A stretch of DNA of 44,595 nt, from NCBI GenBank assembly GCA_002841975.1, contig PHBQ01000014.1, positions 1-44,595 on the forward strand. Reading direction: 5' to 3'. Below the pieces are notes generated by a model. That model worked only from the letters and a program-made list of their open reading frames with translations. It was not told the DNA's origin and did not search any database. Both the position numbers and the translations under genes were made by a program. Below, piece after piece: positions 2,053 through 31,617 of this stretch (within the stretch, counting starts at the first letter, position 1; every line of letters starts with the position of its first letter). This stretch comes from Candidatus Cloacimonetes bacterium HGW-Cloacimonetes-1 (lineage in GTDB: Bacteria; Cloacimonadota; Cloacimonadia; Cloacimonadales; Cloacimonadaceae).

Positions 2053-3252
2053 ATGGTCACAAAAGCACAAAAAGTTCGACTCGGGATATTCTTGGCAATA
2101 GGCTCACTACTCCTCATCATTTTTATTGGTGCAGTTGTAGGTAGCAGATTGGTCGAGAAGCGAGATTATTATTATATAGTTTTCGAAGATTATTCGGTCA
2201 GCGGCTTACAGGTAGGAGGAGCGGTAAACTTCTCCGGAATCCGCGTAGGGCGGGTCGAAACCATCACGATTGATCCTAAAAATGTGATGAGGATAAAGCT
2301 CAAGATCAGCATTCAAGCCGGAACACCGATCAAAGAGGATGCCGAGGCAGCTTTGGTGGCAGTCGGAATTACCGGGCTAAAATCCGTTGAAATCCGAGGC
2401 GGGACAAATGCTGCTCGAACCCTCAAACCCGGATCCTTTATCAAGCCGGGGTCATCCATGCTGGATGATATCACGGGGAAAGCCGTTTCTATAGCTGAAA
2501 AGATAGATGAAGTAGCTGCCAATATCGCTTCCATGACCGATGAAGAAAACCGCAAGAATATTGCAGAAATCCTGAAACAAACCAGTTTACTGATTGCAGA
2601 GACCAGATCATCACTCACAGCTACTCTGCAAAGCATCAGCATTATATCCGAAAATGCTGCAAAAGTTTCTGCTGATGCCGGCAATAACCTAGATAAGATC
2701 ACAGACAACCTTACCAAAAACATGGATTCTCTCACTGTGGCAACTACCGGCAGCATTTATAGCCTCAGCAATACTATGACCAAGGAACTGAACGCAATCG
2801 GTAACAACCTGAACAAGAGTATCACGGATATCGATTCTCAGACCACGCTTCTACTGGCTGATACTCGTTACCAGATCAATGCAGTAGGAGGTCATACCGA
2901 TCTCATGGTTTTGGAAGCGACCAAACAAATAGCAGCTATCAGCGGCAATATAAACCAATCTCTTGATCGGATTAACGCCCTGATCAATTCTCCGGAGTTT
3001 GATAAGCTCATGGTCAATGTAAACGTTCTATCAGCCCAGCTTGCAGAGGCAAACCTGAAGAATCTGGTGGTCGAACTAAGCTCAACTGTCCAAAAAACAG
3101 GCAGCTTGGTTTCGAACATGGATCGTTTGTTGACCAGAAACAAGTCTAATATTATGGAAACTTTGGAGTCTTTAAGAGAGACTACAGAGAACTTAAATGA
3201 ATTCTCAAAGCAAATTTCGGATAACCCATCGCTGCTCTTGCGTGGGTATTAG
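2053..3252 (+). CDS. MlaD/MCE family substrate-binding protein
   Basis: The 399-residue protein has one N-terminal membrane anchor (about residues 9-30), then an MCE domain (about residues 36-120) with YSVSGLQVGGAVNFSGIRVGRV, typical of MlaD-like proteins that carry phospholipid between membranes. The remaining roughly 270 residues are predicted helical and rich in Ser, Asn, Asp and Leu heptad-like repeats, much longer than the short tail of E. coli MlaD. This suggests an extended coiled-coil or needle-like periplasmic segment, as in PqiB/LetB or mycobacterial Mce proteins (inference). Downstream lie the auxiliary lipoprotein, permease and ATPase in the same operon, so this is the periplasmic subunit of one ABC transporter. 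Confidence 0.9.
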   Translation: MVTKAQKVRLGIFLAIGSLLLIIFIGAVVGSRLVEKRDYYYIVFEDYSVSGLQVGGAVNFSGIRVGRVETITIDPKNVMRIKLKISIQAGTPIKEDAEAALVAVGITGLKSVEIRGGTNAARTLKPGSFIKPGSSMLDDITGKAVSIAEKIDEVAANIASMTDEENRKNIAEILKQTSLLIAETRSSLTATLQSISIISENAAKVSADAGNNLDKITDNLTKNMDSLTVATTGSIYSLSNTMTKELNAIGNNLNKSITDIDSQTTLLLADTRYQINAVGGHTDLMVLEATKQIAAISGNINQSLDRINALINSPEFDKLMVNVNVLSAQLAEANLKNLVVELSSTVQKTGSLVSNMDRLLTRNKSNIMETLESLRETTENLNEFSKQISDNPSLLLRGY

Positions 3253-3266
3253 GGGAGGCATCAAAT

Positions 3267-5429
3267 ATGAAAGCACTATCTAAAATAGCTATCGTTTTAG
3301 GACTGGTAACATTATCATTGCTGACAGGTTGTTTTTCCAGAGCAGAAAGAGTGGCGACAAATTACTATATCCTGGACTACCTGCCTTCCACTGAAAACCC
3401 CACATTATTGATGAAGACACCTTTTAAGAAAACACTGGAGATCAACGATACAGATCTACCCAAAACCTACAGCAGAAATCAATTGGTGGTCAAAGAGCAC
3501 TTTTCTCAGATCAAGTACCTATCCAATGAACTGTGGGCAAATCGGCTCTATGATTCGGTACCGAGCCTCATCTCTCAACGCATCAAGGCTTACAATATTT
3601 TCAGCAGAGTGGATCGTGATTTGGGAGAAGTAGCACCGGATTATTATCTGGATACCAATGTCTTGAATATCGAAAAGATAGAGGGAGCTAATCCTGTTGC
3701 TTTTTTGAGGATGGAGTTTTATCTGCGCGATCGGATCACCCAAAAAGCCGTGGTCAGCTATCAACATGAATCCTCACAGCGATTATATGACGAGTCCATC
3801 GTGTACTTGGTACAGGTGTATAACGAATTGATCATGAAAGAGACCGATGTATTTGCCGCAAAATGCATTGACTTCTTATCCGGCAAACAGGTATACAATG
3901 CACCCCAGTCCATAGCAAAAGTTCCTCAATCCTATATCAGTACTCCGATGGAAGAATTCGACCAAAGTCTCTTTACCGGTGAATTGTTCGTTCCCAAAAT
4001 CGGATTCTCTGAAGACGAGATCCAGTTTACCGTGACTGCGTCTGATGAAAAAGGAAGCAATGTTTTTCGCGAGGTGGGAGAATATGCCATCCCCATGACC
4101 CTGGCACCTGGAGATTATACGGTGATCTTGGGAGATAATCGGGACATCTCGGCCGAAGTTACCATTTCTTCTCACATGCGTACTGTCCTTAAACCTACCT
4201 GGGGAGAACTGGTAGTAAAAATCATGGATGACGGACAAAATCAGGTGCGGACAAACTATGATATCTGGATCAAAAAGACCAATGATGAAGGCTTTGATTG
4301 GTTCAATCAAGGGACCAGTAAAGGCGATGATGAAATAGGTGAACCGGATAAAGTATGGATCCTCAAACCCGGCAACTATATGATCAAACTCCAGGGAGGA
4401 TCCTGGAATGATTACAAAGATTTTGCCACAGTGGATATTGGGGAGAATGATCGCAAAACCTTGAGCGTGATCGTTGATCCCGAAGGTACTACTTCGTACA
4501 TGATTGGTGCCGGTGTTTTGGGCGACGATGATATCATCTTGGCCCGACGTAAAATCCATCGCGGAGCCATTCATACAAACGTCAATTTCTCTTCAAACAA
4601 TTCCGTAAACCAAGACAAACCGACCAGAGCATTCAGTCTTTCCGGTCAATTTGATAATCGGATAGAGTACGATCTCCACAGCTTTGACTACTCAATGCGT
4701 AGCATCTATGACTTGGGGATGAATATTGCTACGGGCAGTGATTTTAATATCAACGTCGATGACTATTCCATCAAAAACACTCTCCTTCTACTGCCCTTGA
4801 AAGGACACAAATACGTCAAGAACTTAGGCTTCTATGGCAGAGCCGATCTCACCACTCATTTCTTTGATGAAAAGAGCTTTTATTCCGAGAATAAAAATCT
4901 CTTTGTGCTGAATGCTGAAGGAGATACGACCAGTGTTCTGTTGGATCAAAGTGACTTTAGAACCAAGATCGCTCTCTTCCCGTTACAAGCCAGAGAAGGC
5001 AGCGGTTTGACCTATCGCGTCGTACTGGGCTCCAATGCATCTGTCAGTTTGCGCGGTGGATACGGTTGGCAACAGAACTACAGGCACATGTCCTATACCA
5101 AGAGACAAGAGAACACGACCGTCAATGGCATCGTCTATGACACTTACCAGGAAGAGGATGATTTATTGACTCAGGGCTTTGAAAGCACTCTCATCCTGAG
5201 TGCTCTTAATCTGCTAAATACCTTGAGTATTACCTCCACTTTCGACGTTCTCTTCCCCATGGGTCAAACTGATAACCAAGCCATATTCGAGAGTGATAAC
5301 CGCATCAATATCCGGCTGTTACGCAACGTCTCGGTCGATGTAAAAGCCAATATTAAGTATAACCAGGCGAACAAAGATTATGTGATCTTTGATTATAGTT
5401 CGTTCCTGCGCCTCTCGATGTATTATTGA
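3267..5429 (+). CDS. Lipoprotein: PqiC/ABC_trans_aux-like N-terminus with outer-membrane barrel-like C-terminus
   Basis: This 720-residue protein has a lipoprotein signal peptide with lipobox LTGC (lipidated Cys22). Residues of about 30-215 resemble the ABC-type transport auxiliary domain (PqiC/YmbA type), which accompanies MCE systems at the outer membrane. Residues of about 230-410 form a beta-rich segment with two repeats containing LAPGDYTV and LKPGNYMI, like surface-exposed Ig or PEGA-type modules. From about residue 420 to the end, alternating amphipathic strands and a terminal aromatic (SMYY) suggest a beta-barrel. PqiC proteins are usually about 190 residues, so this is a greatly enlarged version. 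It sits between the MlaD and MlaE genes, with 14-base and 1-base gaps. The auxiliary-domain call is moderate and the barrel call is inference from strand pattern. Confidence 0.7.
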   Translation: MKALSKIAIVLGLVTLSLLTGCFSRAERVATNYYILDYLPSTENPTLLMKTPFKKTLEINDTDLPKTYSRNQLVVKEHFSQIKYLSNELWANRLYDSVPSLISQRIKAYNIFSRVDRDLGEVAPDYYLDTNVLNIEKIEGANPVAFLRMEFYLRDRITQKAVVSYQHESSQRLYDESIVYLVQVYNELIMKETDVFAAKCIDFLSGKQVYNAPQSIAKVPQSYISTPMEEFDQSLFTGELFVPKIGFSEDEIQFTVTASDEKGSNVFREVGEYAIPMTLAPGDYTVILGDNRDISAEVTISSHMRTVLKPTWGELVVKIMDDGQNQVRTNYDIWIKKTNDEGFDWFNQGTSKGDDEIGEPDKVWILKPGNYMIKLQGGSWNDYKDFATVDIGENDRKTLSVIVDPEGTTSYMIGAGVLGDDDIILARRKIHRGAIHTNVNFSSNNSVNQDKPTRAFSLSGQFDNRIEYDLHSFDYSMRSIYDLGMNIATGSDFNINVDDYSIKNTLLLLPLKGHKYVKNLGFYGRADLTTHFFDEKSFYSENKNLFVLNAEGDTTSVLLDQSDFRTKIALFPLQAREGSGLTYRVVLGSNASVSLRGGYGWQQNYRHMSYTKRQENTTVNGIVYDTYQEEDDLLTQGFESTLILSALNLLNTLSITSTFDVLFPMGQTDNQAIFESDNRINIRLLRNVSVDVKANIKYNQANKDYVIFDYSSFLRLSMYY

Positions 5430-5430
5430 T

Positions 5431-6513
5431 ATGAATATCGTAAAAATCGAAAACAATACCCTCTATTTTGGGGGTGTAATGAACTCCGGATCTATCCCGG
5501 AATTTCAACTGGCTATCTCCAAGCTCTTGAAGACAGAGAAACCCGTAATGGTAGATATCGCCGGCATCGAGAGCATAGACAGCGCCGGAGTAGCTTACCT
5601 GGAAATCGTGCAAGAAAGCATCGAAAACCGCAGTGGCTTAGTCATGCTCAATGGAGCAAGTGCCAAAGTAGCATCTGTGATTGATGCCTATTCTTCCAGA
5701 AAGCTGGAAATCCCCAAGCTTCCTCGTAAGGAGTCCTTTTTTGAATCTTTGGGGGGAGCCATTTACAAAGCGAAGGACAGCATGGCCATCAGTTTGGTGC
5801 TGGCTGCAGACATCTATTACTGGTCTTTTGTGGGGCTTTTCAACCGTTCTGGCCAACGTAAAGGGACATTTGTCCAACAAGGTGTGGCTCTGGGCGTCCA
5901 AGCCCTGCCCATCGTAGCCCTGCTTTCCTTTATTATCGGCTTTATTTTGGCTCTGCAATCCGCAGTTCAGCTCCGCAATTTTGGTGCCAATATCTTTATT
6001 GCAGATCTCCTGGCAGTGACCATGGTACGTGAAATGGGTCCCATTTTAACCGCTATTATTGTGGCGGGAAGAAGCGGATCTGCCATCGCCTCTGAAGTGG
6101 CTACCATGAGTGTCACCGAAGAAATCGACGCCCTCAAGATGATGGCTATCAATCCCATCCGCTATGTCATTGTCCCCAAATTTCACGCAATCACCCTGGT
6201 GATGCCGATCCTGGTGGCTTTTTCGATCCTCGTCGGCGAGATTGGGGGCGGGATCATAGCCCTGGGCTATCTGGATCTCAGCCTCAATTCATTCATCAGT
6301 AGAACGGTCGAAATCATCACCTTAAAGGACCTCTTAATCAGCCTTGGCAAAAGTACCTTCTTTGCTTGGGTTATCGTCGTAATCGGCTCCTATTTTGGCT
6401 TCCAGGTCAAAGGCGGCGCAGAAGGTGTGGGAAAGGCTACCACTTCATCAGTAGTTGCCTCGATATTTGCGGTAATCGTATTTGATGCCATGTTTAGTCT
6501 CTTGTACTTGTAA
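5431..6513 (+). CDS. mlaE: STAS-MlaE fusion: MCE ABC transporter permease
   Basis: The start chosen is the ATG at 5431, one base after the preceding stop, rather than an upstream in-frame ATG that overlaps the lipoprotein gene. This gives 360 residues. Residues 1-90 form a STAS domain (VDIAGIESIDSAGVAYL, with Asp50-Ser51), which corresponds to the separate MlaB protein of E. coli. The rest is an MlaE permease with about five or six membrane segments and the family hallmark AGRSGSAIASEVATMSVTEE, followed by IDALKMM. Fusion of STAS to the permease gives a fixed stoichiometry with the ATPase encoded next. Role: inner-membrane channel of the lipid transporter formed with the MlaD-like and MlaF-like products. 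Confidence 0.93.
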   Translation: MNIVKIENNTLYFGGVMNSGSIPEFQLAISKLLKTEKPVMVDIAGIESIDSAGVAYLEIVQESIENRSGLVMLNGASAKVASVIDAYSSRKLEIPKLPRKESFFESLGGAIYKAKDSMAISLVLAADIYYWSFVGLFNRSGQRKGTFVQQGVALGVQALPIVALLSFIIGFILALQSAVQLRNFGANIFIADLLAVTMVREMGPILTAIIVAGRSGSAIASEVATMSVTEEIDALKMMAINPIRYVIVPKFHAITLVMPILVAFSILVGEIGGGIIALGYLDLSLNSFISRTVEIITLKDLLISLGKSTFFAWVIVVIGSYFGFQVKGGAEGVGKATTSSVVASIFAVIVFDAMFSLLYL

Positions 6514-6523
6514 CAGGATTTAT

Positions 6524-7267
6524 ATGAAAACTACACCCATCATCTCGGTCAAAGACTTAGTAGCAAAATATGGCGATAAAACCATCCTGGATGGCATTAG
6601 CGTGGACATCCTGCCCAACGAAGTAACGGTGATCCTCGGGGGTAGCGGTTGCGGCAAGACCACTCTCCTCAAAAACATCCTTCGCCTCTACGAACCCTTT
6701 TCCGGAGAAGTCAAATTCTGGGACCAGGATATTCTGGGCTTGGATGAAGAAGAATTTGGTAAAATTCTGAAGCAAGTCGGCATGCTGTTTCAAAACGGTG
6801 CCCTGCTCAATTCCGTCTCCATTTATGAAAATGTCTCGATCCCGCTGGAACAGCATACCAAGCTCACCCGAGACATTATCGACCGCATTATCCGGGTCAA
6901 ACTAAATCTGGTCAATCTCAGCCATGCGACCTACCTTTTGCCTTCGGAATTATCCGGAGGTATGAAGAAGCGCGCGGCTCTGGCTCGTGCCCTAGCGCTG
7001 GATCCCAAGATTCTGTTTTGCGACGAGCCTTCAGCCGGTTTGGATCCCCTCACCTCTGCAGATTTGGACAATCTCCTGCTCAGCTTGAAGCAACAGCTGA
7101 ATATGACGATTGTGATAGTGACTCACGAGCTGGCATCCATCCATCGCATTGCAGATAAAATCATCTTCCTAGATGCCGGTAAGATGCTATTCTTCGGATC
7201 CCTGGACGAAGCCAAAAAAGCCGGTATCCCCCAAATCGATACTTTCTTTGAAGTAGGTAAATTCTAA
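6524..7267 (+). CDS. mlaF: MlaF-like ABC transporter ATP-binding protein
   Basis: The 247-residue ATPase starts at ATG 6524. A longer frame beginning at 6482 overlaps the permease gene and adds residues not seen in the family. Walker A GGSGCGKTT is at residues 39-47, the Q-loop at about residue 90 (LFQNGAL), signature LSGGM at 143-147, Walker B ILFCDEPSAGLDP at 163-175, and the switch His in VTHE. The signature LSGGMKKR and the FQNGALL sequence are typical of MlaF/Mkl. It energises lipid movement by the upstream permease. The gap to the permease gene is 10 bases. Confidence 0.95.
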   Translation: MKTTPIISVKDLVAKYGDKTILDGISVDILPNEVTVILGGSGCGKTTLLKNILRLYEPFSGEVKFWDQDILGLDEEEFGKILKQVGMLFQNGALLNSVSIYENVSIPLEQHTKLTRDIIDRIIRVKLNLVNLSHATYLLPSELSGGMKKRAALARALALDPKILFCDEPSAGLDPLTSADLDNLLLSLKQQLNMTIVIVTHELASIHRIADKIIFLDAGKMLFFGSLDEAKKAGIPQIDTFFEVGKF

Positions 7268-17128: not shown

Positions 17129-20100
17129 ATGAGGAGATTTATTCCGGATTTTATTGCTCAAATGCATGCCATCAAAGAAGATAGTGGCATTATAGATGCT
17201 TATGTGCTCCAAGTCGACATTGTTGACTTTACGCAACTAACATCTATGATTATGGGCAGTTATCCCGATGGTGCCGAGCTCTTGGCTGATTATCTAAATA
17301 CTATATTCTCTAACATGATAGACACTGTTGATGCCTACGGAGGATTTGTTTCCGTGTTCCAGGGAGATGGATTTGTTGCTATTTTTCCACAAGATCAAGT
17401 AAGCGTTGAAAATGTCTTTTCGTGCACGCAGCAGATCATGAGGAAATTTATCAACAGTGCTATCGCGATAGGATCAGCCGACCCCGTACATCACCCTCTT
17501 TGTTGCAGTGTTAGTACGGGCCCCCTCCACTGGGAACTGATTGATAACCCGGACAAGAAGATATGGTATTTCTATGGTGACGCGTTGATTACCGCAGAAC
17601 AGGGAATAGAATTGACTCAATACAATCAAGTGGTTTGCGATACCTCAAGCTATGCCTTGTTAAAAGCTGCAAATCCTCAAATCGAGGCAGTTGAACTGGG
17701 ATATCATTTTTGTTTACCTTATGATGGTTCAGAGCAAGATACTATCCGAATCCCCGCTATTCCGAGTAAGACAACCTTAAAAGACATACAGCAGTTTTTT
17801 CCGGAACTGATGGGAATCGAGCTTCCCCTGGACGAATATAGGGAGGCGGTAACCTGCTTTGTCCAGGTGCGTAATCCCAATCATGCCAGTGCAATAGTCA
17901 ATACTGCTATAGACTTATGCAATCAATTTGGGGCATACTTCAATAAAATTGATGTGAACCAGGGTTACTTGTCGTTGATGCTTGTCTTCGGAGCCCCGAA
18001 GATGTTAGAAAACCAAACTTTTAGGGCTGCAGAATTTGCTTTACATATGATTGCACACAACCCCAAGGGACTCAAGATATCTCTGGTACAGGGAAAAGTC
18101 TTTGCAGGGGTTATGGGTAACGATCTGAGAATGGATTATACCGTGATCGGTTCCAGCGTCAATTTGGCTGCCAGAATGGTAACCGTAGGTTCGTGGGGTA
18201 TGATTTTGTTTAACGACCACATGGCAGCGGAACTGATGTTCGGATTCCAAATCGAGGAGTTTAATACCCTTCCTATCCGGGGATTTGCCGATAAACAGAG
18301 TATTTATAGTTTGACAGGACGAAAAGAACATCTTCGCAACGCAAGCTTTTCGGGGAGTTTCTTTGGCAGAAAAGAAGAGATCATCGAAATTAACAGATTT
18401 ATTGAGACCTGTAATCGGGGAATGAAACCGGGGGTTGTGACTATCATAGGAACCTCCGGGATCGGCAAAACAAGACTCGTCAATACACTTCTTACTTCCA
18501 TTCAATATGCCAAAGCACTCAAGATGTATATCAGTTGTGACAACGTCCTAAAAAGAGGGATCAATATCATAAATGAGATCTTGATGCAATATCTGGAACT
18601 GAATTCAGACGATACAAGCGACACTGTTCGTGTAACTATGCTCCAAAAAATTGAACAATACCGTATCAAGGGGATCTCCGGCCCCGATATTTCACTCTTA
18701 GAATCCAGCATTGATGATCTGGCAGGAATCTTTTCCGCAGTGTTTACAATATCCACCAATGGATTCCATAACTCTGTCTCCAATAACGCCAGTATGTTTT
18801 CAAAGCTCAAGAACTGGATAATGACCGAAGCATCACTTCGTAATGTGATCCTGGTTCTCGACAATATGCAATGGATAGACCGGGATACATTGCAGTGGGC
18901 AACAGATATGATAGCTGATTGCAGCAAGCACCATCTGAGTATTGTGACAATTACGCGTGTCCAGTATCTCGGGCAGAGAGTGAGTATCAGGCTCAAATCG
19001 CCCAATAACCTACAAGTCGAGATAAAGCCTTTGGATTCAAAGCATCTTAATAGCTTCATTGCAGATCGAGTTACCACCTATGGCATTGACCCCGATACTA
19101 TTTACATCGAACCGGATTATCTCGATAAACTCATTCTGAAGAGCGATGGTAACCCTTTGTTCCTGGAACAACTGTTACTATATTCGAAATCAGCCGGGTT
19201 TGCCAAGACTATTGCTCAGGATAGTCCGCCTTTGCTTACCGGTATTCCCAATACCATCCAACACGCAGTTATCTCACGATACGACACCTTGGAGCAGATG
19301 GATAAAGAGTATCTGCAAATTGCCTCCGTATTTCCAGGAAGTTTTATGCTACAAGACCTGAAAGACGCGATAGAACAGATTCATCATATTTCAGAGGCAG
19401 ATTTCTGGAGCTTTACGATCAAAGCCTTGGACATCAGATTCATCCAGCATCAAAAGGAAGAACTATACTGCTTTTGCCACGTCGTCATCAAAGATGCGAT
19501 CTACTCCACTTTATTGCGTAAACGAGCCCGCCAGATCCATGGCATTATTGCAGAACAATTTGAAAAACAATACGATGAAAACTGTTCTGAACACTTCACA
19601 GCAGAAATTGCACACCACTATTTCCATTCCGGCAATCTCGGCAATGCTGCGGTTTATTACAAAAAAGCGGGCGACATCGCCAAGTTATGCAGTCTGAGGA
19701 AAACCGCTAAACAATATTACCAAAAAGCTGAACACATCTATAAAGGGCTTGCGAATTCAGCCAATGAATACCTACAGACAGTGTTGGACCATTTGTCTGT
19801 AATAGTAGGATTTGACGAATCCGACAAAATAGATGAATTGCTGAGCTTAGCTACAGCCTTGGATAGCGCTTGTACTTCGTTAGCGATTCACAAAATGTAT
19901 CTGATGGCGGCTGGGTTAGTTTATCGCAATCGAGGTCAATATGAAGTAGCCTTGGAGTATTTTCTCAAATACATGAATACGCTCACAGATATAGATGTGG
20001 ACGATTTACAGGAGTGCACTTCAAGGATAGGTGAGACATACCACTGTTTGAGACAATACGATAAATCATTGGAGTTTTTCCGGCAAGCACTGGATTTGTG

Positions 20101-21142
20101 TAAATCGCAGGACTACAGTCGTCTGGGCTCGGCATATATGAATCTCGGAATCAATGCAAATGCTAATAATGATTCACCCAACGCCCTCACTTACTTATTC
20201 AAAGCCAGGACATTTGCCACCTTATGCAATGATCAGGAAACCCTCCACAGTATAATGGGAAATATCGGTATAGCCTATAGATACGCCGGTCAATACCAAA
20301 AAGCGATGGATATTTATTCCGAAATGTTGGAGTTATCCATCAAAAACAGTGATTATTCATCTATCACCAATGACAGTAACCAACTGGCCGGATTGGCATT
20401 GACTTTGTGTGATTACAAATCCGCATTAGAGCATTCCGAACGGGCTGTGCACTATGGCTTGAAAGTCAAAAACACCAGGATCGTCGCTTACTCCCTGATC
20501 AACCAAGCCATGATTATGATGGAACTCGGATTCTACGACAAAACAATTGAACTGATCAGTGATTTCCGTAAACAAATCAAGAACTCTCCACATCTGGATG
20601 AACCTAGCGACCGCTATCTGGCATTAGGAATGTCTTATCAAAAATCCGGTGATTTGCAGACAGCCCTGGGCTATTTTAACAAGGGAATTGAATGGTCAAA
20701 TGTCAATAAAACTCCCTTTTTCCTCTATGCCTTTTTGTATTTGAAAGCGGAAGTGCTCGAGGCCATGGGAGCAGACGATGAAGCACTGAAACTGATCGAT
20801 ACCATCATCTTGGAAGCCTGGGATCATGGACGTGATGATGCCTATGTCGATGCCAGGATTCTTCAGGTGTGTATCGCCCACAAATGCGCCCCGGAAACTA
20901 TTCCGGAGCATATTCTCGGGCTTACAAAGCTCTACCATGATGTTGAGGATACAGAGCAAAAAGCATACCTGGCATCAGCCATTTATCGCTATTCCCTGCA
21001 TCACAAACCGGAATTGATTCCACAGCACGTACTGCACCAATATCGGGATCATGCCATCAGTTATCTGGAAAGGATGCTAATGAATGCCGAACGAGTGGAG
21101 TATAGAAGGCGTTTAAACCAGCTACTGGAGATTCAGGACTAG
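17129..21142 (+). CDS. Large signalling protein: two class III cyclase domains, AAA-type ATPase, TPR repeats
   Basis: This 1337-residue cytoplasmic protein starts after GAGGAGG. Cyclase domain 1 (about 22-185) keeps both metal-binding aspartates, Asp30 (VDIVDFT) and Asp80 (FQGDGF), but its later part is degenerate. Domain 2 (about 238-395) has lost them (FVQV and NQGY at those places) but keeps DYTVIGSSVNLAARM, with Asn345 and Arg349 of the transition-state site. The pair could form one intramolecular active site, as in soluble adenylyl cyclase. The usual Lys four residues before Asp80 is Val76, so base specificity is unsure. An ATPase follows (Walker A GTSGIGKT 441-448, Walker B ILVLDNMQWID about 574-584), then roughly 450 residues of TPR-like helices. 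The layout resembles ADCY10 and bacterial cyclase-STAND proteins. Confidence 0.9.
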   Translation: MRRFIPDFIAQMHAIKEDSGIIDAYVLQVDIVDFTQLTSMIMGSYPDGAELLADYLNTIFSNMIDTVDAYGGFVSVFQGDGFVAIFPQDQVSVENVFSCTQQIMRKFINSAIAIGSADPVHHPLCCSVSTGPLHWELIDNPDKKIWYFYGDALITAEQGIELTQYNQVVCDTSSYALLKAANPQIEAVELGYHFCLPYDGSEQDTIRIPAIPSKTTLKDIQQFFPELMGIELPLDEYREAVTCFVQVRNPNHASAIVNTAIDLCNQFGAYFNKIDVNQGYLSLMLVFGAPKMLENQTFRAAEFALHMIAHNPKGLKISLVQGKVFAGVMGNDLRMDYTVIGSSVNLAARMVTVGSWGMILFNDHMAAELMFGFQIEEFNTLPIRGFADKQSIYSLTGRKEHLRNASFSGSFFGRKEEIIEINRFIETCNRGMKPGVVTIIGTSGIGKTRLVNTLLTSIQYAKALKMYISCDNVLKRGINIINEILMQYLELNSDDTSDTVRVTMLQKIEQYRIKGISGPDISLLESSIDDLAGIFSAVFTISTNGFHNSVSNNASMFSKLKNWIMTEASLRNVILVLDNMQWIDRDTLQWATDMIADCSKHHLSIVTITRVQYLGQRVSIRLKSPNNLQVEIKPLDSKHLNSFIADRVTTYGIDPDTIYIEPDYLDKLILKSDGNPLFLEQLLLYSKSAGFAKTIAQDSPPLLTGIPNTIQHAVISRYDTLEQMDKEYLQIASVFPGSFMLQDLKDAIEQIHHISEADFWSFTIKALDIRFIQHQKEELYCFCHVVIKDAIYSTLLRKRARQIHGIIAEQFEKQYDENCSEHFTAEIAHHYFHSGNLGNAAVYYKKAGDIAKLCSLRKTAKQYYQKAEHIYKGLANSANEYLQTVLDHLSVIVGFDESDKIDELLSLATALDSACTSLAIHKMYLMAAGLVYRNRGQYEVALEYFLKYMNTLTDIDVDDLQECTSRIGETYHCLRQYDKSLEFFRQALDLCKSQDYSRLGSAYMNLGINANANNDSPNALTYLFKARTFATLCNDQETLHSIMGNIGIAYRYAGQYQKAMDIYSEMLELSIKNSDYSSITNDSNQLAGLALTLCDYKSALEHSERAVHYGLKVKNTRIVAYSLINQAMIMMELGFYDKTIELISDFRKQIKNSPHLDEPSDRYLALGMSYQKSGDLQTALGYFNKGIEWSNVNKTPFFLYAFLYLKAEVLEAMGADDEALKLIDTIILEAWDHGRDDAYVDARILQVCIAHKCAPETIPEHILGLTKLYHDVEDTEQKAYLASAIYRYSLHHKPELIPQHVLHQYRDHAISYLERMLMNAERVEYRRRLNQLLEIQD

Positions 21143-23570: not shown

Positions 23571-24746
23571 TTAAAACTGATACTCTACCGCTGCTCCCAG
23601 ACGATTTTCACTATATTCCTTCAATCGTAACACGGAACTATTCGGTGAATCGACATTACGAAATATGTGAGAGTAGTCAAGCATAAATTTCCAACTGTCC
23701 GAAATAAATACATCAATCCCGGCGTTTGTAGTGGTGATCATGTCTATGCGGCCGCCATACCAGGAGTCCAACCCTTGATAGAAACGTTCTTCATAAGAAA
23801 GAGATAGCGCCGGTCGCCATGTAATACCATTGGGATCGAGGTCCGATAATGGCATTCTCTGAAGTTTCATCCCGATATCGTATTTATTGCTCTCGTAGGA
23901 GGAGTCATCATCTATCACATCGTTATCAAATACCCGGTAATAATACATCCCTCTTAGTGAAAAAACGGGGAGATCCTGATTCCACCCTATTCCGTAGGTC
24001 AGTGAATTGCCATCGTATTCTTTCCAATATTGGTTGTAATACAATTCTTCATAGCGAACAGTGAACAGGGCAGTCCCTTTCTTCAGAGGTCTGATATTGA
24101 GATCGGCACGATACTGATTGCGCTCGTAACTATAGTCTTCGAGGGCGTGAGTTCCATCGCTATCTTTGTAATCCCGCACATATATATGTGGAGCATAAGC
24201 ATACCTGAGTGATGCATCCCACTTATACCGTTTGATCTTCAGCCTGGTCGATACATCCCGTCGGTATTTTTCACTGTTTGAAAGATTGTGTGAGAGGTTT
24301 GCATCGATGGAAGGCTCGATCAGCCACCATTTATAATGCATCGGATATGCCAGATTGATATTGGTACCCATAGTAACGTCATCTGTGGTAGTCACATAGG
24401 CAAGATATGGATGATTGTGGTCATATCTATCAAAGTCGTAAGCAGACAATTGGAATACATTATCACTGAATTCTGCAGTAGTGGTAATCGAACCAGAAAT
24501 CTGGCCATAAGCCGCTGTGAAGTTCCAGGACAATATAAACAGTATACACAGTATTATTGGTCTGAATGGCTTGGTAGAACGGTGGGGTCTCAATTCCTTT
24601 TCCGTTGTAACGGATTCTTCCTCTTGGGTTACCTCAATCTCACTTTCAACCGGAGTATCATTCAGCTTTTCAAATGACGCTCTGAGTAACTTGTCCTTAC
24701 TATCTATGGTGATAGCTTGCGAAAATCTCCGGAGTTGAGCCATCAT
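23571..24746 (-). CDS. Outer-membrane beta-barrel-like protein in the polyglutamate operon
   Basis: This 391-residue protein has a barrel-like mature part (about residues 85-391). It has alternating amphipathic strands, high Tyr/Trp/Asp content, and a C-terminus AAVEYQF ending in Phe, the usual Bam signal. The only hydrophobic segment is at about residues 63-81 and ends TAAYGQ, like a signal peptide, but it is preceded by about 60 polar residues. The ATG at 24746 has AGGAAGG just upstream and lies 6 bases after the previous gene. A TTG at 24593 would instead give a normal signal peptide. No named family is recognised. Its position suggests a role in moving or anchoring polyglutamate at the outer membrane (inference). 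Confidence 0.75.
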   Translation of the reverse strand: MMAQLRRFSQAITIDSKDKLLRASFEKLNDTPVESEIEVTQEEESVTTEKELRPHRSTKPFRPIILCILFILSWNFTAAYGQISGSITTTAEFSDNVFQLSAYDFDRYDHNHPYLAYVTTTDDVTMGTNINLAYPMHYKWWLIEPSIDANLSHNLSNSEKYRRDVSTRLKIKRYKWDASLRYAYAPHIYVRDYKDSDGTHALEDYSYERNQYRADLNIRPLKKGTALFTVRYEELYYNQYWKEYDGNSLTYGIGWNQDLPVFSLRGMYYYRVFDNDVIDDDSSYESNKYDIGMKLQRMPLSDLDPNGITWRPALSLSYEERFYQGLDSWYGGRIDMITTTNAGIDVFISDSWKFMLDYSHIFRNVDSPNSSVLRLKEYSENRLGAAVEYQF

Positions 24747-24752
24747 TCCTTC

Positions 24753-25571
24753 CTATTTTTTAATTACCGGTTTCACGAGGATCAAGTGTCCACTGACCGA
24801 TTTCAATTCAAAAACACTGCTACCGGTGTTCTCCGGCAAGTCTATACGCATCCCTATGGAGAGATGAGTAATGCCTGCAACTTTGTATTTGGCAGTACGT
24901 TTGGTAGGTAATTGGTAGCGCTTGATCATGATACCATCTTGATACAAGTCCATTGTCGGGATCGAACGATCTGTCAATTTTGCTCTGACATACATGATGG
25001 CATCACGTTTGTTGTTCACTTCAAACTTCATCTGATGCTCGAGATCGATAGTATAGTAGTTTGATGTCTTTTGCTCAAAAGTCAGGTTCATCATCCCGCC
25101 GTGTGCCAATACCTTCAGATTTGGCAATTTCACGGGTTTGGGCTTCGGTGTAACCGTATAAAAAGACCGTAAGTATATATAGCGATCGTAGCAGAGTATT
25201 TCCACATTCTGGGTACCCTTGGGTATAGTTACATTAATCGGTTGATACACGGTATAATTTTTCACAGTCTTGTCTATTACCAGATCATACGACTGTTTTT
25301 GCTTACCGATAATCACGATAAATTTCGGCTTTGCAACGGGCTTTCTGGCAAAGGATCGGATCTCTATCTGCTCAAGGTTTTTCACATTCAATTTCATGTT
25401 TTTTTCCGGAAGAGAGCGGAAGAAGTAATAGTTTCCGGCTTCACTTTTCAGCAAGCGTTTAGTTCCGGGATTGTCAAAAGTCATAGGTACTGTCTTCGCC
25501 ATCAACGCTCCCCCCAGGGAAACAACGAGTGATAGTACCATTAGCATCAGGGTAGCATATTTTTTATACAT
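24753..25571 (-). CDS. Secreted beta-rich protein of unknown function in the polyglutamate operon
   Basis: The 272-residue protein has a clear signal peptide (about residues 1-25, MYKKY then a hydrophobic core ending GGALMAK). The mature part is beta-rich, basic and has two similar halves, each with a YY-aromatic strand (GNYYFFRSLPEK and SNYYTIDLEHQ) followed by a short beta segment, which suggests an internal duplication. A proline-rich linker (VTPKPKPVKLP) joins them. It has no lipobox. It lies 29 bases after pgsW and 6 before the barrel gene, so a periplasmic partner of either is likely (inference). I recognise no family. Confidence 0.75.
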   Translation of the reverse strand: MYKKYATLMLMVLSLVVSLGGALMAKTVPMTFDNPGTKRLLKSEAGNYYFFRSLPEKNMKLNVKNLEQIEIRSFARKPVAKPKFIVIIGKQKQSYDLVIDKTVKNYTVYQPINVTIPKGTQNVEILCYDRYIYLRSFYTVTPKPKPVKLPNLKVLAHGGMMNLTFEQKTSNYYTIDLEHQMKFEVNNKRDAIMYVRAKLTDRSIPTMDLYQDGIMIKRYQLPTKRTAKYKVAGITHLSIGMRIDLPENTGSSVFELKSVSGHLILVKPVIKK

Positions 25572-25600
25572 TAATCAGGCTCCAAATCTTGCTGTATGGT

Positions 25601-26725
25601 TTAAAGTTCTTCATCGGGATCTACTATGTTTGCCATAAAATGCCTGTCATGGCGATCAAAGATAATTACCGCTATGATAGCCATAATCAGCAAAGCCAGG
25701 CATATCGAAGAGACCAGCATACTATGAATCATATAGCTAAACACTTTGCCCTCGCCTGCCACCGGCATTCTATCGGGTGCGATTGGCAGATCGTACTGTT
25801 TAGCCCAACGCAGGATTCTGGTGACGTGCAACACGTTGATATTTTTCTTTGCCATCAGCATCAATACACCTTCAGTGTCATACTGTCGCTCTGCTATTTT
25901 TGTGTTCAAGCCTTCGGAGATCAGCCTGACATTGACATTGCTGCCGACGTTTGCCAAGCCTCCACCGATGTTCACAAAAAGTCGATACTTGCGTCCACTG
26001 GGCAGTAACTCGTTGTAAGCCTGAAATCGTAATTCCACATTTTCAGGGAGATTTGCACCGATCAAGAGCGGCACAGAATTACGCTGCATGGCATCTCGTA
26101 AAGCCTGTACGCCGTTATCTGATAAACCAATCCCCAGATCGTCACGTCCGCCCAATGATGCGTATGAAGTAGAAAAATCTATCATCTTGCGTTTCTTTAG
26201 AATAGCTTCAATATCCAGCCAGGTCATATCTTCCCGGTTTGCACCATATGAAGATGAACTGAGAGCCGTAATAATACTGGGCTTCAGCTTCATCACCGTC
26301 ATCGCAGCATATAGCGCTAAGTTCACGGCAGGATTCGATCCCGTCATGCCTATTGCTATGTAATCTCCCTCGCTGAGCTTAGCTTTATTAAGCTCTTGCA
26401 CAAATACTGCTGCCAAATTAGGATTTACGGATGTCTGCTTTTCGGAGAGTAAACCCTTACTGGTAGTGATTGAACTGAGGCGCGTTCCTACTAGTCCCGT
26501 CCGCATCGGATCATCCAAAGGATCAAATTCAAATCCCCTCTGGGTCAGATCTACACGGATGGTATCTATGTAAGACTGCATCAATTCTGCTGCGGCTATT
26601 TTTTCTTCGTAATAATCTGTCTTGATATGATTATAGCTGCGCTGTGCCACGACGATAAGAACGAGACTCAACACGAAAAGCATGATCAGAGATTTACCGG
26701 ATTTTAGCGAAGGTCTAAACATCAT
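25601..26725 (-). CDS. pgsW: Poly-gamma-glutamate system protein, PgsW type
   Basis: The 374-residue protein has one N-terminal membrane segment (about 12-28), a large extracytoplasmic domain, and one C-terminal membrane segment (about 335-356). The domain contains IGMTGSNPAVNLALYAAM, SSSSYGANREDMTWLDIE and SLGGRDDLGIGLSDNG, which I associate with the poly-gamma-glutamate system family often encoded beside PgsB and PgsC in species without a typical PgsA. The four-base overlap with pgsC supports a joint complex. The biochemical role is not established. Confidence 0.8.
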   Translation of the reverse strand: MMFRPSLKSGKSLIMLFVLSLVLIVVAQRSYNHIKTDYYEEKIAAAELMQSYIDTIRVDLTQRGFEFDPLDDPMRTGLVGTRLSSITTSKGLLSEKQTSVNPNLAAVFVQELNKAKLSEGDYIAIGMTGSNPAVNLALYAAMTVMKLKPSIITALSSSSYGANREDMTWLDIEAILKKRKMIDFSTSYASLGGRDDLGIGLSDNGVQALRDAMQRNSVPLLIGANLPENVELRFQAYNELLPSGRKYRLFVNIGGGLANVGSNVNVRLISEGLNTKIAERQYDTEGVLMLMAKKNINVLHVTRILRWAKQYDLPIAPDRMPVAGEGKVFSYMIHSMLVSSICLALLIMAIIAVIIFDRHDRHFMANIVDPDEEL

Positions 26726-27189: not shown

Positions 27190-28377
27190 TTATTTCTTCA
27201 CTTTATTCAAAGCTTGCATTTTATGTTTGAAATGTGCCACAATCTGGGCACCATATTTGATCTGCCCGGCAATGTTTCCAATCCCGATCACATGCGATTC
27301 AGCCTTTGTCAGGCTGAGTACTTTTTGATATATGACGTCCGTCAAAGGCTCACCCAAAGCAATCACTTTGGCTTTGGGAATACCGATCTGCAAGGCATAA
27401 GCCTCTACCTTTTCATGCATTTCCCCGGTCAGGAAGACATAAGAGAAATCCATGGGTAAGATCTCGTCCAATAGCTGTTGTGAACGGAAATATCGATCCG
27501 ATCGACTATTGAGTATGATAATAGTTTCTGCATTCTTCAAGCCATCTGTGATCATGTGAATGATTCTGCCGGTAGATTTGGGGTCGTTGGCGGCAAACAC
27601 ATTATAAAAGCTGATCTTCTTGCCGTTGTCGACAAACTGATATTTCTTCAGAGCTCCGGGATCCGGATGAGCGGACTGCATACCCTTGAGAGCCACAGCT
27701 CTGGAAACTCCCGCTTCTGCACACACTGCCAGGGCTAACTGTACATTCTCTGCATGCTCGATGTAGCGGAACAAGTTCAATTCTTCCTGGGTGACATCAT
27801 ACGGACGAATCTTGTGAATCTTACAGTGTCTTTTATCTGCCACTTGTTTTAGCAGAGAAAACTGCTCATTTTCAGCAGTGTAACACACGCCATTACGCGG
27901 GATAGTATTGCTCAGACACATCGTGACGCTCTGCACAGTAGAACCCATCAGGTCCATGTGATCCGGCCGACTGTTAGTAAGCACGGATATTGTAGAACGT
28001 ACAAACTGCCGCTCTGTGATCCACTGAAACACAGGATTTACAGCCATGCATTCGATTACGATGGCATCCGGCTTTTCGGCGGCTGCATAGCGGAAGATAT
28101 ATTTTTGCTCGATGATATTTGCACCCATCAAACGGATGATTGCAGCTTCTCTACCATCTGCCAATACCACTCTGGGCAATGTCCCCGTGATCTTGGCTAT
28201 AGTTTTTTTTCCACCGGCTCTCAGACCGGCAGCAATCAAGCGTGTTACGCTGGATTTACCCCGTGTACCATTTACATGAATGCGGATCGGGATCGACCTT
28301 ACATTCTGGGTATGGCGACTATATTCAATCATCCAATTGATTATTAACACGATAGTTACAATTATCAGTACGGCCAT
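27190..28377 (-). CDS. pgsB: Poly-gamma-glutamate synthase PgsB/CapB
   Basis: The 395-residue protein is an amide ligase of the Mur-ligase-like fold that joins glutamates through the gamma carboxyl group with ATP. An N-terminal membrane anchor (residues 3-15) is followed by the P-loop GTRGKSS at 37-43. LTNSRPDHMDLMG near 135 is the family's metal and ATP segment. Length matches B. subtilis PgsB (393). It is the first gene of the eight-gene run that ends with the asparaginase, with GAGGA before the ATG. I could not identify a convincing promoter in the 340 bases upstream. Confidence 0.95.
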   Translation of the reverse strand: MAVLIIVTIVLIINWMIEYSRHTQNVRSIPIRIHVNGTRGKSSVTRLIAAGLRAGGKKTIAKITGTLPRVVLADGREAAIIRLMGANIIEQKYIFRYAAAEKPDAIVIECMAVNPVFQWITERQFVRSTISVLTNSRPDHMDLMGSTVQSVTMCLSNTIPRNGVCYTAENEQFSLLKQVADKRHCKIHKIRPYDVTQEELNLFRYIEHAENVQLALAVCAEAGVSRAVALKGMQSAHPDPGALKKYQFVDNGKKISFYNVFAANDPKSTGRIIHMITDGLKNAETIIILNSRSDRYFRSQQLLDEILPMDFSYVFLTGEMHEKVEAYALQIGIPKAKVIALGEPLTDVIYQKVLSLTKAESHVIGIGNIAGQIKYGAQIVAHFKHKMQALNKVKK

Positions 28378-28747: not shown

Positions 28748-28835
28748 CACTCAATACAGGGGTGCTGGATGAGATTCATCCGGCTGAGATGATACCCTTC
28801 GAACCTGATCCGGATAATGCCGGCGTAGGAAAGTG
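28748..28835 (+). ncRNA. TPP riboswitch (THI element)
   Basis: The conserved core is complete: ACAGGGGTGC, a P3 hairpin GGATGA/TCATCC, GGCTGAGAT, GATACCCTTCGAACCTGATC, and then CCGGATAATGCCGGCGTAGGA split over two helices. P1 can form from CACT at 28748-28751 and AGTG at 28832-28835. It precedes thi4-thiE-thiC-thiD, which all serve thiamine synthesis, so ligand and targets agree. Confidence 0.95.
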
Positions 28836-28902
28836 AATCACCCAAATCTTGCAATTCACGAAGGACACATCCATTTCCCCCCTGCAAATATATAAGGGGA
28901 AA
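28833..28902 (+). promoter_or_regulatory. Expression platform with ribosome-site hairpin
   Basis: TTTCCCC (28874-28880) pairs perfectly with GGGGAAA (28896-28902), which includes the thi4 Shine-Dalgarno AAGGGGA. This would block translation start. Upstream, GTGAAT (28833-28838) can pair with ATTCAC (28854-28859), competing with the P1 helix of the aptamer. No T run follows, so translational rather than transcriptional control is inferred. Confidence 0.6.
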
Positions 28903-29680: not shown

Positions 29681-30334
29681 ATGTTGCAGGACTTTGGACT
29701 ATACATTGTGATGACCAAGCCTGTCTTGGGTTATAACGCTTTTACACAGATCTGCGTCGAAGAGGCTATCCCCATGCTCCAGTTACGGGATAAGCACTTT
29801 GGCGACAGGGCATTGTATGAATTGAGCTGCGAACTCCAAGGCATCACCAAAGGCTCTGAAACGCGCTTCATCCTCAATGATAATCCGTTGGTGGCACAGC
29901 TTGCAGGGGTTGATGGTCTGCACTTGGGGCCGGAAGACCTCTCCCCCCAGCATGCCTTGCAAGTTTACAGTGCCAAGCGCATATTGGGGCTGTCGTCGCA
30001 TAGCACCGCAGAGGCAACATCCATTATCGGTGACTATCACAATGCTTCCTATGGCATCAAGCCGGATTATCTGAGCTTTGGGCCGATCTTCCCTACTCCC
30101 ACCAAAGCCATTCCGGACGCACCGGTCGGAACTGATCAATTGAAATCCGTAATATCCATCGCTCCCATGCCGATCGTGGCAATCGGAGGGATTTATCCAG
30201 AAAACATCATTTCTGTACTGCAAACTGGAGCCAGAAACATTGCAATGGTGAGGTATTTTATGCAGGCAGACAGCAAGAGTGAGCTCCGGCTCCGCATCAC
30301 AGAAATTCGCTCAATCATAAAGGAGAATAGATAA
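29681..30334 (+). CDS. thiE: Thiamine-phosphate synthase
   Basis: The 217-residue TIM-barrel enzyme joins the pyrimidine diphosphate and thiazole phosphate. Motifs are QLRDK near residue 33, FILNDNPLVAQLAGVDGLHLGPEDL at about 64-88, GLSSHS near 104, and the pyrophosphate-binding FGPIFPTPTK near 134 and VAIGGIYPENI near 166. It begins one base after the thi4 stop and its stop codon shares a base with the thiC ATG (TAATG), so translation is coupled. Confidence 0.93.
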   Translation: MLQDFGLYIVMTKPVLGYNAFTQICVEEAIPMLQLRDKHFGDRALYELSCELQGITKGSETRFILNDNPLVAQLAGVDGLHLGPEDLSPQHALQVYSAKRILGLSSHSTAEATSIIGDYHNASYGIKPDYLSFGPIFPTPTKAIPDAPVGTDQLKSVISIAPMPIVAIGGIYPENIISVLQTGARNIAMVRYFMQADSKSELRLRITEIRSIIKENR

Positions 30335-31617
30335 TGACCCAATTACAATCCGCCCTCATCGGTAACGTCACACCGGAAATGCTCAAAGTAGCAGAACTGG
30401 AACAGATAGATATGCCATCACTTATGCACAATATCGCGCGAGGATATGTTGTCCTCCCCCACAACCGGAATCGCAATGCCATTCCTTGTGCCATCGGGAA
30501 AGGACTCTGTACCAAAATCAATGCGAACCTGGGCACTTCTGAAATGCATAATTGCATCGAAGAAGAGCTGCTCAAAATCCAGATTGCCGAAAAGCATGGC
30601 GCACATGCCGTGATGGATCTTTCCACGGGTGGCGATCTGAACCTGATCCGGGAACGCATGCTCTCCGAATCACGCTTGATCCTGGGAACAGTTCCGATCT
30701 ATGCGCTGGCGACCAAGCTCAATGAAGAAGGCAAAGACATCATAGCAATGGATCCCGAAGACTTGTTTAACGAAATCGAGCTGCAAGCTCAACAAGGCGT
30801 GGACTTTATGACTCTTCACGTGGGTATTACGCTGCGCTCTCTGAAGTTTCAACAAAATGCGGATAGATTGCTGGGCATAGTCAGCCGGGGCGGAGCCTTG
30901 CTCAAACGCTGGATGCTGCATCATCAGAAAGAAAACCCATTGTATGAAGGATTTGACAGAATCTTGGCAATCTGTGTGAAACACGACGTTACGCTGAGCC
31001 TGGGTGATGGATTGCGGCCGGGTGCCATATCCGATGCCACCGATCAAGCGCAGTTATCGGAACTGATGGAATTGGGCGAGATGGTGAAACGCTCCCGGGC
31101 TGCCGGAGTCCAGGTCATGGTGGAAGGTCCGGGGCACGTGCCGATACAGGATATCCCGGCAAATGTGCGCTTGGAAAAGCTGCTTTGTGATGGCGCGCCG
31201 TTCTACGTTTTGGGACCTCTTCCTACGGATTTTTCACCGGGATACGACCATATCACAGGTGCGATCGGCGGAGCTTTGGCAGCGTCACACGGGGCAGATT
31301 TCCTCTGCTATGTCACCCCGGCGGAACACCTCTGCCTGCCGAGTCTGGATGATGTCAAACAGGGAGTTATTGCTTCCCGCATCGCTGCTCATGTGGGCGA
31401 TATTGCCAAGGGCGTCGTTGGTGCTATCGAGATTGATAACGACATTGCAAAGGCACGGCGGTCGATGGATTGGGAGACGATCTTTGCCAAAAGCGTGGAT
31501 CCAGAATTGGCAAGGGAACGCAAGAACCTCACTTCCAAAGATAATGCAGATCAGTGCTCCATGTGCGGTAACCTCTGCGCCATCAAGACAGATAAAAAGA
31601 GTGATGAGAGCGCCTAA
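30334..31617 (+). CDS. thiC: Phosphomethylpyrimidine synthase
   Basis: The 427-residue radical SAM enzyme converts aminoimidazole ribotide to HMP phosphate. The N-terminal half has the NLGTSEMHNCIEEELLK segment, with MDLSTGGDL near 90. The core includes SLGDGLRPGAISD near 226 and VMVEGPGHVPIQDIPANV near 257. The C-terminal cluster motif is CSMCGNLC, spaced C-x2-C-x3-C, whereas the E. coli form is C-x2-C-x4-C. The protein is of the short type, lacking the E. coli N-terminal extension. A 4Fe-4S enzyme of this kind fits an anaerobe. Confidence 0.95.
   Translation: MTQLQSALIGNVTPEMLKVAELEQIDMPSLMHNIARGYVVLPHNRNRNAIPCAIGKGLCTKINANLGTSEMHNCIEEELLKIQIAEKHGAHAVMDLSTGGDLNLIRERMLSESRLILGTVPIYALATKLNEEGKDIIAMDPEDLFNEIELQAQQGVDFMTLHVGITLRSLKFQQNADRLLGIVSRGGALLKRWMLHHQKENPLYEGFDRILAICVKHDVTLSLGDGLRPGAISDATDQAQLSELMELGEMVKRSRAAGVQVMVEGPGHVPIQDIPANVRLEKLLCDGAPFYVLGPLPTDFSPGYDHITGAIGGALAASHGADFLCYVTPAEHLCLPSLDDVKQGVIASRIAAHVGDIAKGVVGAIEIDNDIAKARRSMDWETIFAKSVDPELARERKNLTSKDNADQCSMCGNLCAIKTDKKSDESA

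Follow-up and report, generated by a model that had tools for sequence, protein, structure and literature searches.

A PqiC-like lipoprotein fused to a predicted outer-membrane β-barrel in an MlaEFD-type operon of Cloacimonadota

MCE systems transport different lipids in different bacteria, and it is still an open question how, outside Proteobacteria, the MCE needle is joined to the outer membrane. The Cloacimonadota, a little-studied phylum from which the present locus comes, are usually placed among the FCB bacteria. In E. coli, the lipoprotein PqiC assembles into an octamer, a ring which has been proposed to take up the PqiB needle and dock it at the outer membrane (PMC10897342). PqiC shares its auxiliary lipoprotein fold with the protein described here, but it is a single-domain protein, and its partners differ, with PqiA in place of MlaE and MlaF, and a PqiB that carries three MCE domains (PMC10897342). 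The chimeric Mla-Pqi system Mpc (MpcEFDA) of Brucella abortus resembles the present system in its MlaEFD core and long-needle MlaD, and in having a PqiC-like outer-membrane lipoprotein and no MlaC; MpcA is presented there as a lipoprotein homologous to PqiC, with no barrel described, whereas the protein reported here adds two β modules and a predicted 12-stranded barrel (PMC12436622). In the MlaEFD system of Veillonella parvula a barrel is likewise part of a core MCE component and there is no MlaA or MlaC, but that barrel is fused to MlaD itself, whereas here the fusion is to the lipoprotein (PMC10665443). The same study describes MlaD of FCB bacteria as having no barrel, and raises the possibility of unidentified partners (PMC10665443). 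Finally, in PelBC of Pseudomonas PqiC-like lipoproteins form a ring seated on an outer-membrane barrel, which shows that such a seating can occur, but its components are separate proteins, with 12 PelC per PelB barrel, and they serve polysaccharide export (PMC12141448). No description of the lipoprotein-barrel fusion reported here was found in the literature searched (open-licence papers).

The fusion is encoded in the window, by which we mean the whole stretch of 44,595 nucleotides that was analysed. Our main reading, to which we give a probability of about 0.75, is that this 720-residue protein forms the outer-membrane terminus of a lipid transporter of the MlaEFD type. The features of the locus are as follows.

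2053..3252, + strand: MlaD-like single-MCE needle protein, 399 residues (PF02470, E 1.3e-12)
3252..3258, + strand: ribosome-binding-like GGGGAGG, read directly from the sequence
3267..5429, + strand: PqiC-like lipoprotein fused to a predicted outer-membrane barrel, 720 residues, ATG at 3267
3267..3332, + strand: lipoprotein signal peptide ending LLTGC (Cys22 codon 3330-3332)
3354..3884, + strand: PqiC/DUF330 domain, residues 30-206 (PF03886 profile and Foldseek)
3966..4193, + strand: β module 1, residues 234-309 (hhalign against module 2, and model strands)
4194..4490, + strand: β module 2, residues 310-408 (hhalign against module 1, and model strands)
4554..5426, + strand: predicted 12-stranded outer-membrane barrel, residues 430-720, DUF3078-related, with an aromatic Tyr720 at its end
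4857..4982, + strand: predicted extracellular hairpin, residues 531-572, not membrane-amphipathic and shortened at locus L048
5082..5162, + strand: predicted extracellular loop or hairpin, residues 606-632, variable
5431..6513, + strand: STAS-MlaE fused permease (PF01740, PF02405), likely start ATG 5431, chosen from the sequence
6524..7267, + strand: MlaF-like ABC ATPase (PF00005), start 6524 picked from the translation

The frame for the fusion lies between mlaD and the STAS-mlaE and mlaF genes, 14 bases 3' of mlaD, and the ATG of STAS-MlaE begins one base 3' of its end. With PF02470, PF02405 and an MlaF-like ABC ATPase adjoining one another, the operon is of the MlaEFD type, the best NCBIfam match of the ATPase being MlaF, yet below the MlaF cut-off. 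The MlaD-like protein consists of a transmembrane helix, an MCE domain, a long helical tail and a C-terminal tip, NLNEFSKQISDNPSLLLRGY; it terminates in this helical tip and a short tail, the barrel being on the lipoprotein and not on MlaD, which distinguishes it from the V. parvula type. The tip motif is kept across the MlaD of 54 sister operons. Compared with about 300 residues elsewhere in the phylum, MlaD in the window's family is exceptionally long (mostly 355-466), and the extra length is mainly helical tail; the needle of this family may thus be longer.

The predicted domain anatomy of the 720-residue protein is well supported by profile matches and structural models, and runs from a lipoprotein signal through the PqiC/DUF330 domain and two β modules to the barrel. 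The cysteine of the LLTGC motif, Cys22, is invariant in two alignments, of 23 and of 25 relatives. PF03886 matches residues 55-189 (E 5.6e-9, 36.2 bits against a cut-off of 26), and a Foldseek search with the AlphaFold2 model of the N-terminal domain returned 2iqi (XCC0632), 6osx and 8q2c (PqiC), with TM-scores (target) of 0.76-0.81. A profile score above the cut-off, the PqiC fold and the lipobox cysteine together place the protein in the ABC-type transport auxiliary lipoprotein family. A first-pass annotation of this DNA had proposed both a lipid anchor and an auxiliary domain, the latter within residues 30-215; both proposals are borne out.

The same annotation had claimed two repeated β modules with a surface-like character. 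Their kinship holds: profile-profile comparison of residues 234-309 with 310-408 by hhalign gives a probability of 89% (E 2.3e-6), while shuffled, reversed and unrelated controls all remained below 1% (five shuffled sequences at 0.8% or less). The surface-like character is probably wrong. Given that the modules are located after the lipid-anchored domain and before the first barrel strand, the predicted topology places them in the periplasm, and they should be periplasmic rather than surface-exposed.

The C-terminal 300 residues or so had been described as barrel-like, and the models agree, with a predicted barrel of about 290 residues carrying two extracellular hairpins. In the AlphaFold2 model, for which the input alignment was 25 sequences, long antiparallel strands extend from residue 430 to residue 719. 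The Foldseek PDB matches shown for this region are all outer-membrane barrels, and include EstA, NalP, FapF, OmpG, the COG4313 channel, FadL and porins. A soluble β-solenoid or globular fold for residues 420-720 thus finds no support. The fold class of residues 430-720 is clear from the model, whereas its finer details are uncertain, with moderate TM-scores against known barrels (about 0.3-0.56) and a full-length pTM of only 0.42. The model being imprecise to this degree, the number of strands was taken from amphipathicity. Twelve strands alternate between lipid-facing and lumen-facing residues, as membrane strands do, while the hairpins at 535-567 and 610-629 lack this alternation and are taken to be extracellular. 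Fourteen long strands can be counted in the model, but 12 are preferred, because the strands 535-548 and 554-567 do not have the membrane alternation, and because the stretch 535-567 is largely deleted at L048. A barrel of 12 strands fits with both of its ends lying in the periplasm, and the even count of amphipathic strands and the aromatic C-terminal Tyr720 are as found in outer-membrane barrels. The predicted lumen is polar, with conserved charged residues (R525, R596, E639, D691 and R715), and residues facing the lumen show somewhat higher conservation than those facing lipid (permutation p 0.02).

The window protein has no match to the Pfam family DUF3078 (PF11276) at E up to 1. However, hhalign of the profile of its relatives against that of a stand-alone DUF3078 family, one with a member elsewhere in the window's genome, gives a probability of 97.7% over 246 columns (E 1.9e-12), with shuffled and reversed controls below 1%. 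Where relatives have the barrel as a separate protein, it matches DUF3078 weakly in 10/10 cases (best E 2.4e-4) and DUF481 in 6/10 (best E 1.5e-6). The window barrel therefore appears from these profiles to be remotely related to DUF3078, without being a member by cut-off. The DUF3078 proteins, which would thus belong to the same remote barrel family, differ in being stand-alone and uncharacterised, whereas the fusion barrel sits in an MCE operon; the window's genome has one stand-alone DUF3078 copy (contig C109), which is outside the MCE operon.

The architecture was searched for within the Cloacimonadota, in 125 genomes, and the whole fusion is present as a single open frame in 86 of them. 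A frameshift or an assembly artefact as the origin of the fusion was rejected on this ground. Fusion proteins share 42-55% identity inside the window's family, and 28-34% with those of other families of the order. At the same operon position, two adjacent genes are found in a sister lineage (f12 and f13) as well as in two families, f6 and f8, of the order to which the window belongs, the order of the five genes being mlaD, lipoprotein, barrel protein, STAS-mlaE and mlaF. The split lipoprotein has 200-217 residues and its own lipobox; the barrel protein has 515-528 residues, its own signal sequence, and both β modules as well as the barrel. We read such a pair at 12 loci; at L077, one of them, mlaE is located elsewhere. 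The MlaE tree requires at least three changes between the split and fused states, and might be satisfied, for instance, by one fusion and two later splits. Because the fused and split forms share their position, the Rosetta-stone argument links the two halves to each other, and both of them to the MCE operon. A fusion with unchanged gene order is strong evidence, at the level of sequence, that points to a physical partnership of the halves. Chance neighbourhood was rejected, since the order is kept and the halves are found both fused and split.

Five genomes of genus g6 (G005, G024, G032, G035 and G038) do not have the fusion. These have one MlaE, compared with two in the fusion-bearing genomes of the genus, and only the short type of MlaD, with no long MlaD; since the fusion, one MlaE and the long MlaD are missing jointly, they were lost as a unit. 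In one other genome (G055, L033:3782-5995) there is an in-frame TAA in the N-terminal domain and the fusion looks interrupted or misassembled; it is intact in a relative, G063.

MlaA (PF04333) and MlaC (PF05494) were each found in 0 of the 125 Cloacimonadota genomes, and the system is thus not the six-component Mla of the E. coli type. Proteins of the Omp85 family, on which insertion of a barrel of this kind depends, are present. LptD was undetected in the window's genome with the Pfam profile PF04453, and an asymmetric LPS membrane, as presupposed for Mla function, therefore remains an assumption here.

The fusion is a clear new architecture inside a known transport principle, that of MCE and PqiC, and its most likely role is that of an outer-membrane docking platform for the MlaD needle. 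The first-pass annotation had suggested a built-in receiver in place of MlaA or OmpC, and this is supported indirectly, by the position beside MlaD, which is conserved across the phylum, and the split genes in sister lineages, and further by the absence of MlaA and MlaC, the joint loss with an MlaE/MlaD set, and the conserved MlaD tip. What follows on docking, stoichiometry and lipid flow is inferred. The acylated lipoprotein would sit on the periplasmic face of the outer membrane, where the PqiC-like domains would assemble into a ring, with the hexameric MlaD needle docking there by its tip. By analogy with PqiC and PqiB, and with Brucella MpcA and MpcD, a ring of N-terminal domains on the MlaD tip is the most likely arrangement. 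The β modules would then be a periplasmic spacer or collar, and the barrel, inserted by BAM, would fix the ring in the membrane and form a local site for lipid entry to or exit from the outer membrane. The polar lumen weighs against the barrel as a lipid pore, and passage of acyl chains through it is unlikely, the lumen being charged as well; the chains would rather pass beside the barrel, or through the needle and ring. The fusion implies one barrel per lipoprotein, so that a complete ring would put six to eight barrels round a needle. An octamer like that of PqiC, built of 1:1 fusions, would have eight, an arrangement for which we found no precedent, and multiple barrels per needle were a difficulty for the V. 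parvula authors also (PMC10665443).

It may be that the barrel only anchors the ring and needle and takes no part in lipid exchange, the ring by itself giving lipids access to the inner leaflet as it does in PqiABC or Mpc. We consider this a credible alternative, though one that we would not favour. The PqiC and MpcA systems are described without a dedicated barrel (PMC10897342, PMC12436622), and the V. parvula authors allow an anchoring role for their barrel, which they call too narrow for lipid (PMC10665443); the polar lumen of the window barrel is in keeping with this. However, the barrel is retained throughout the phylum, even as a separate gene, and its inward residues are more conserved than its lipid-facing ones, which a mere anchor need not show.

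The substrate could also be something other than phospholipid, for example a different envelope lipid or a hydrophobic nutrient, for which the barrel would be the specific outer-membrane receptor. The variety of lipids carried by MCE systems, the undetected LptD, and the presence of three MlaE and three MCE genes in the window's genome speak for this idea, which is nevertheless unlikely, given that no substrate-specific catabolic genes were recognised among the scanned neighbours and that the operon is near-universal in the phylum. It is far less probable that the protein resembles an autotransporter, in which the N-terminal domain and modules are passed through the barrel to the surface and the MCE genes are chance neighbours. 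The order of passenger then barrel would suit it, and the top barrel matches do include the 12-stranded autotransporter domains of EstA and NalP, but the presumed passenger is a PqiC-family domain adjoining MlaD, sister lineages have separate lipoprotein genes, no helix precedes strand 1 in the AlphaFold2 model, and the barrel is kin to DUF3078 and not to autotransporters.

Returning to the docking platform, the fusion points, by covalent linkage, to an outer-membrane partner of the kind raised for FCB bacteria, and offers a candidate for the connection of needle and outer membrane where the usual partners are absent. More tentatively, and at a little under even odds, we suggest that the outer-membrane MCE terminus of Cloacimonadota is a ring of PqiC-like lipoproteins with one 12-stranded barrel each, an arrangement previously undescribed. 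If true, this would make a continuous lipid conduit from the inner to the outer membrane, ending in a multi-barrel receiver. The same terminus may perhaps occur in other FCB bacteria that have no MlaA, MlaC or barrel-bearing MlaD. The split forms are natural two-gene versions, suited to pull-down and complementation, and the fusion suggests what one branch of barrels related to DUF3078 may do.

It is worth adding that the window's genome has other MCE loci. On contig C84 (L119:5835-9768) a second MlaD, of 300 residues, is followed directly by a 1017-residue protein with peptidase-MA-like, WD40-like propeller and C-terminal Omp85 barrel domains, and the second MCE system may also be paired with an outer-membrane barrel; locus L123 likewise has an MlaD followed by a frame, of 1008 residues. 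A third set, on contig C22 (L120:4115-7543), has MlaE, a short ATPase-like frame, MlaD and a lipoprotein of 301 residues, the last with a TPR repeat and no PF03886 match.

Elsewhere in the window, three adjacent frames of 391, 272 and 374 residues (23571-26725, - strand) have no Pfam match at E 1e-5, and adjoin a frame with only a Mur ligase middle domain (27190-28377). At 17129-21142 (+ strand) there is a 1337-residue protein with adenylate/guanylate cyclase, AAA ATPase and TPR domains. A TPP riboswitch (28748-28849, + strand) lies upstream of the thiamine genes, these being a thiE-like gene (29681-30334) and thiC (30334-31617).
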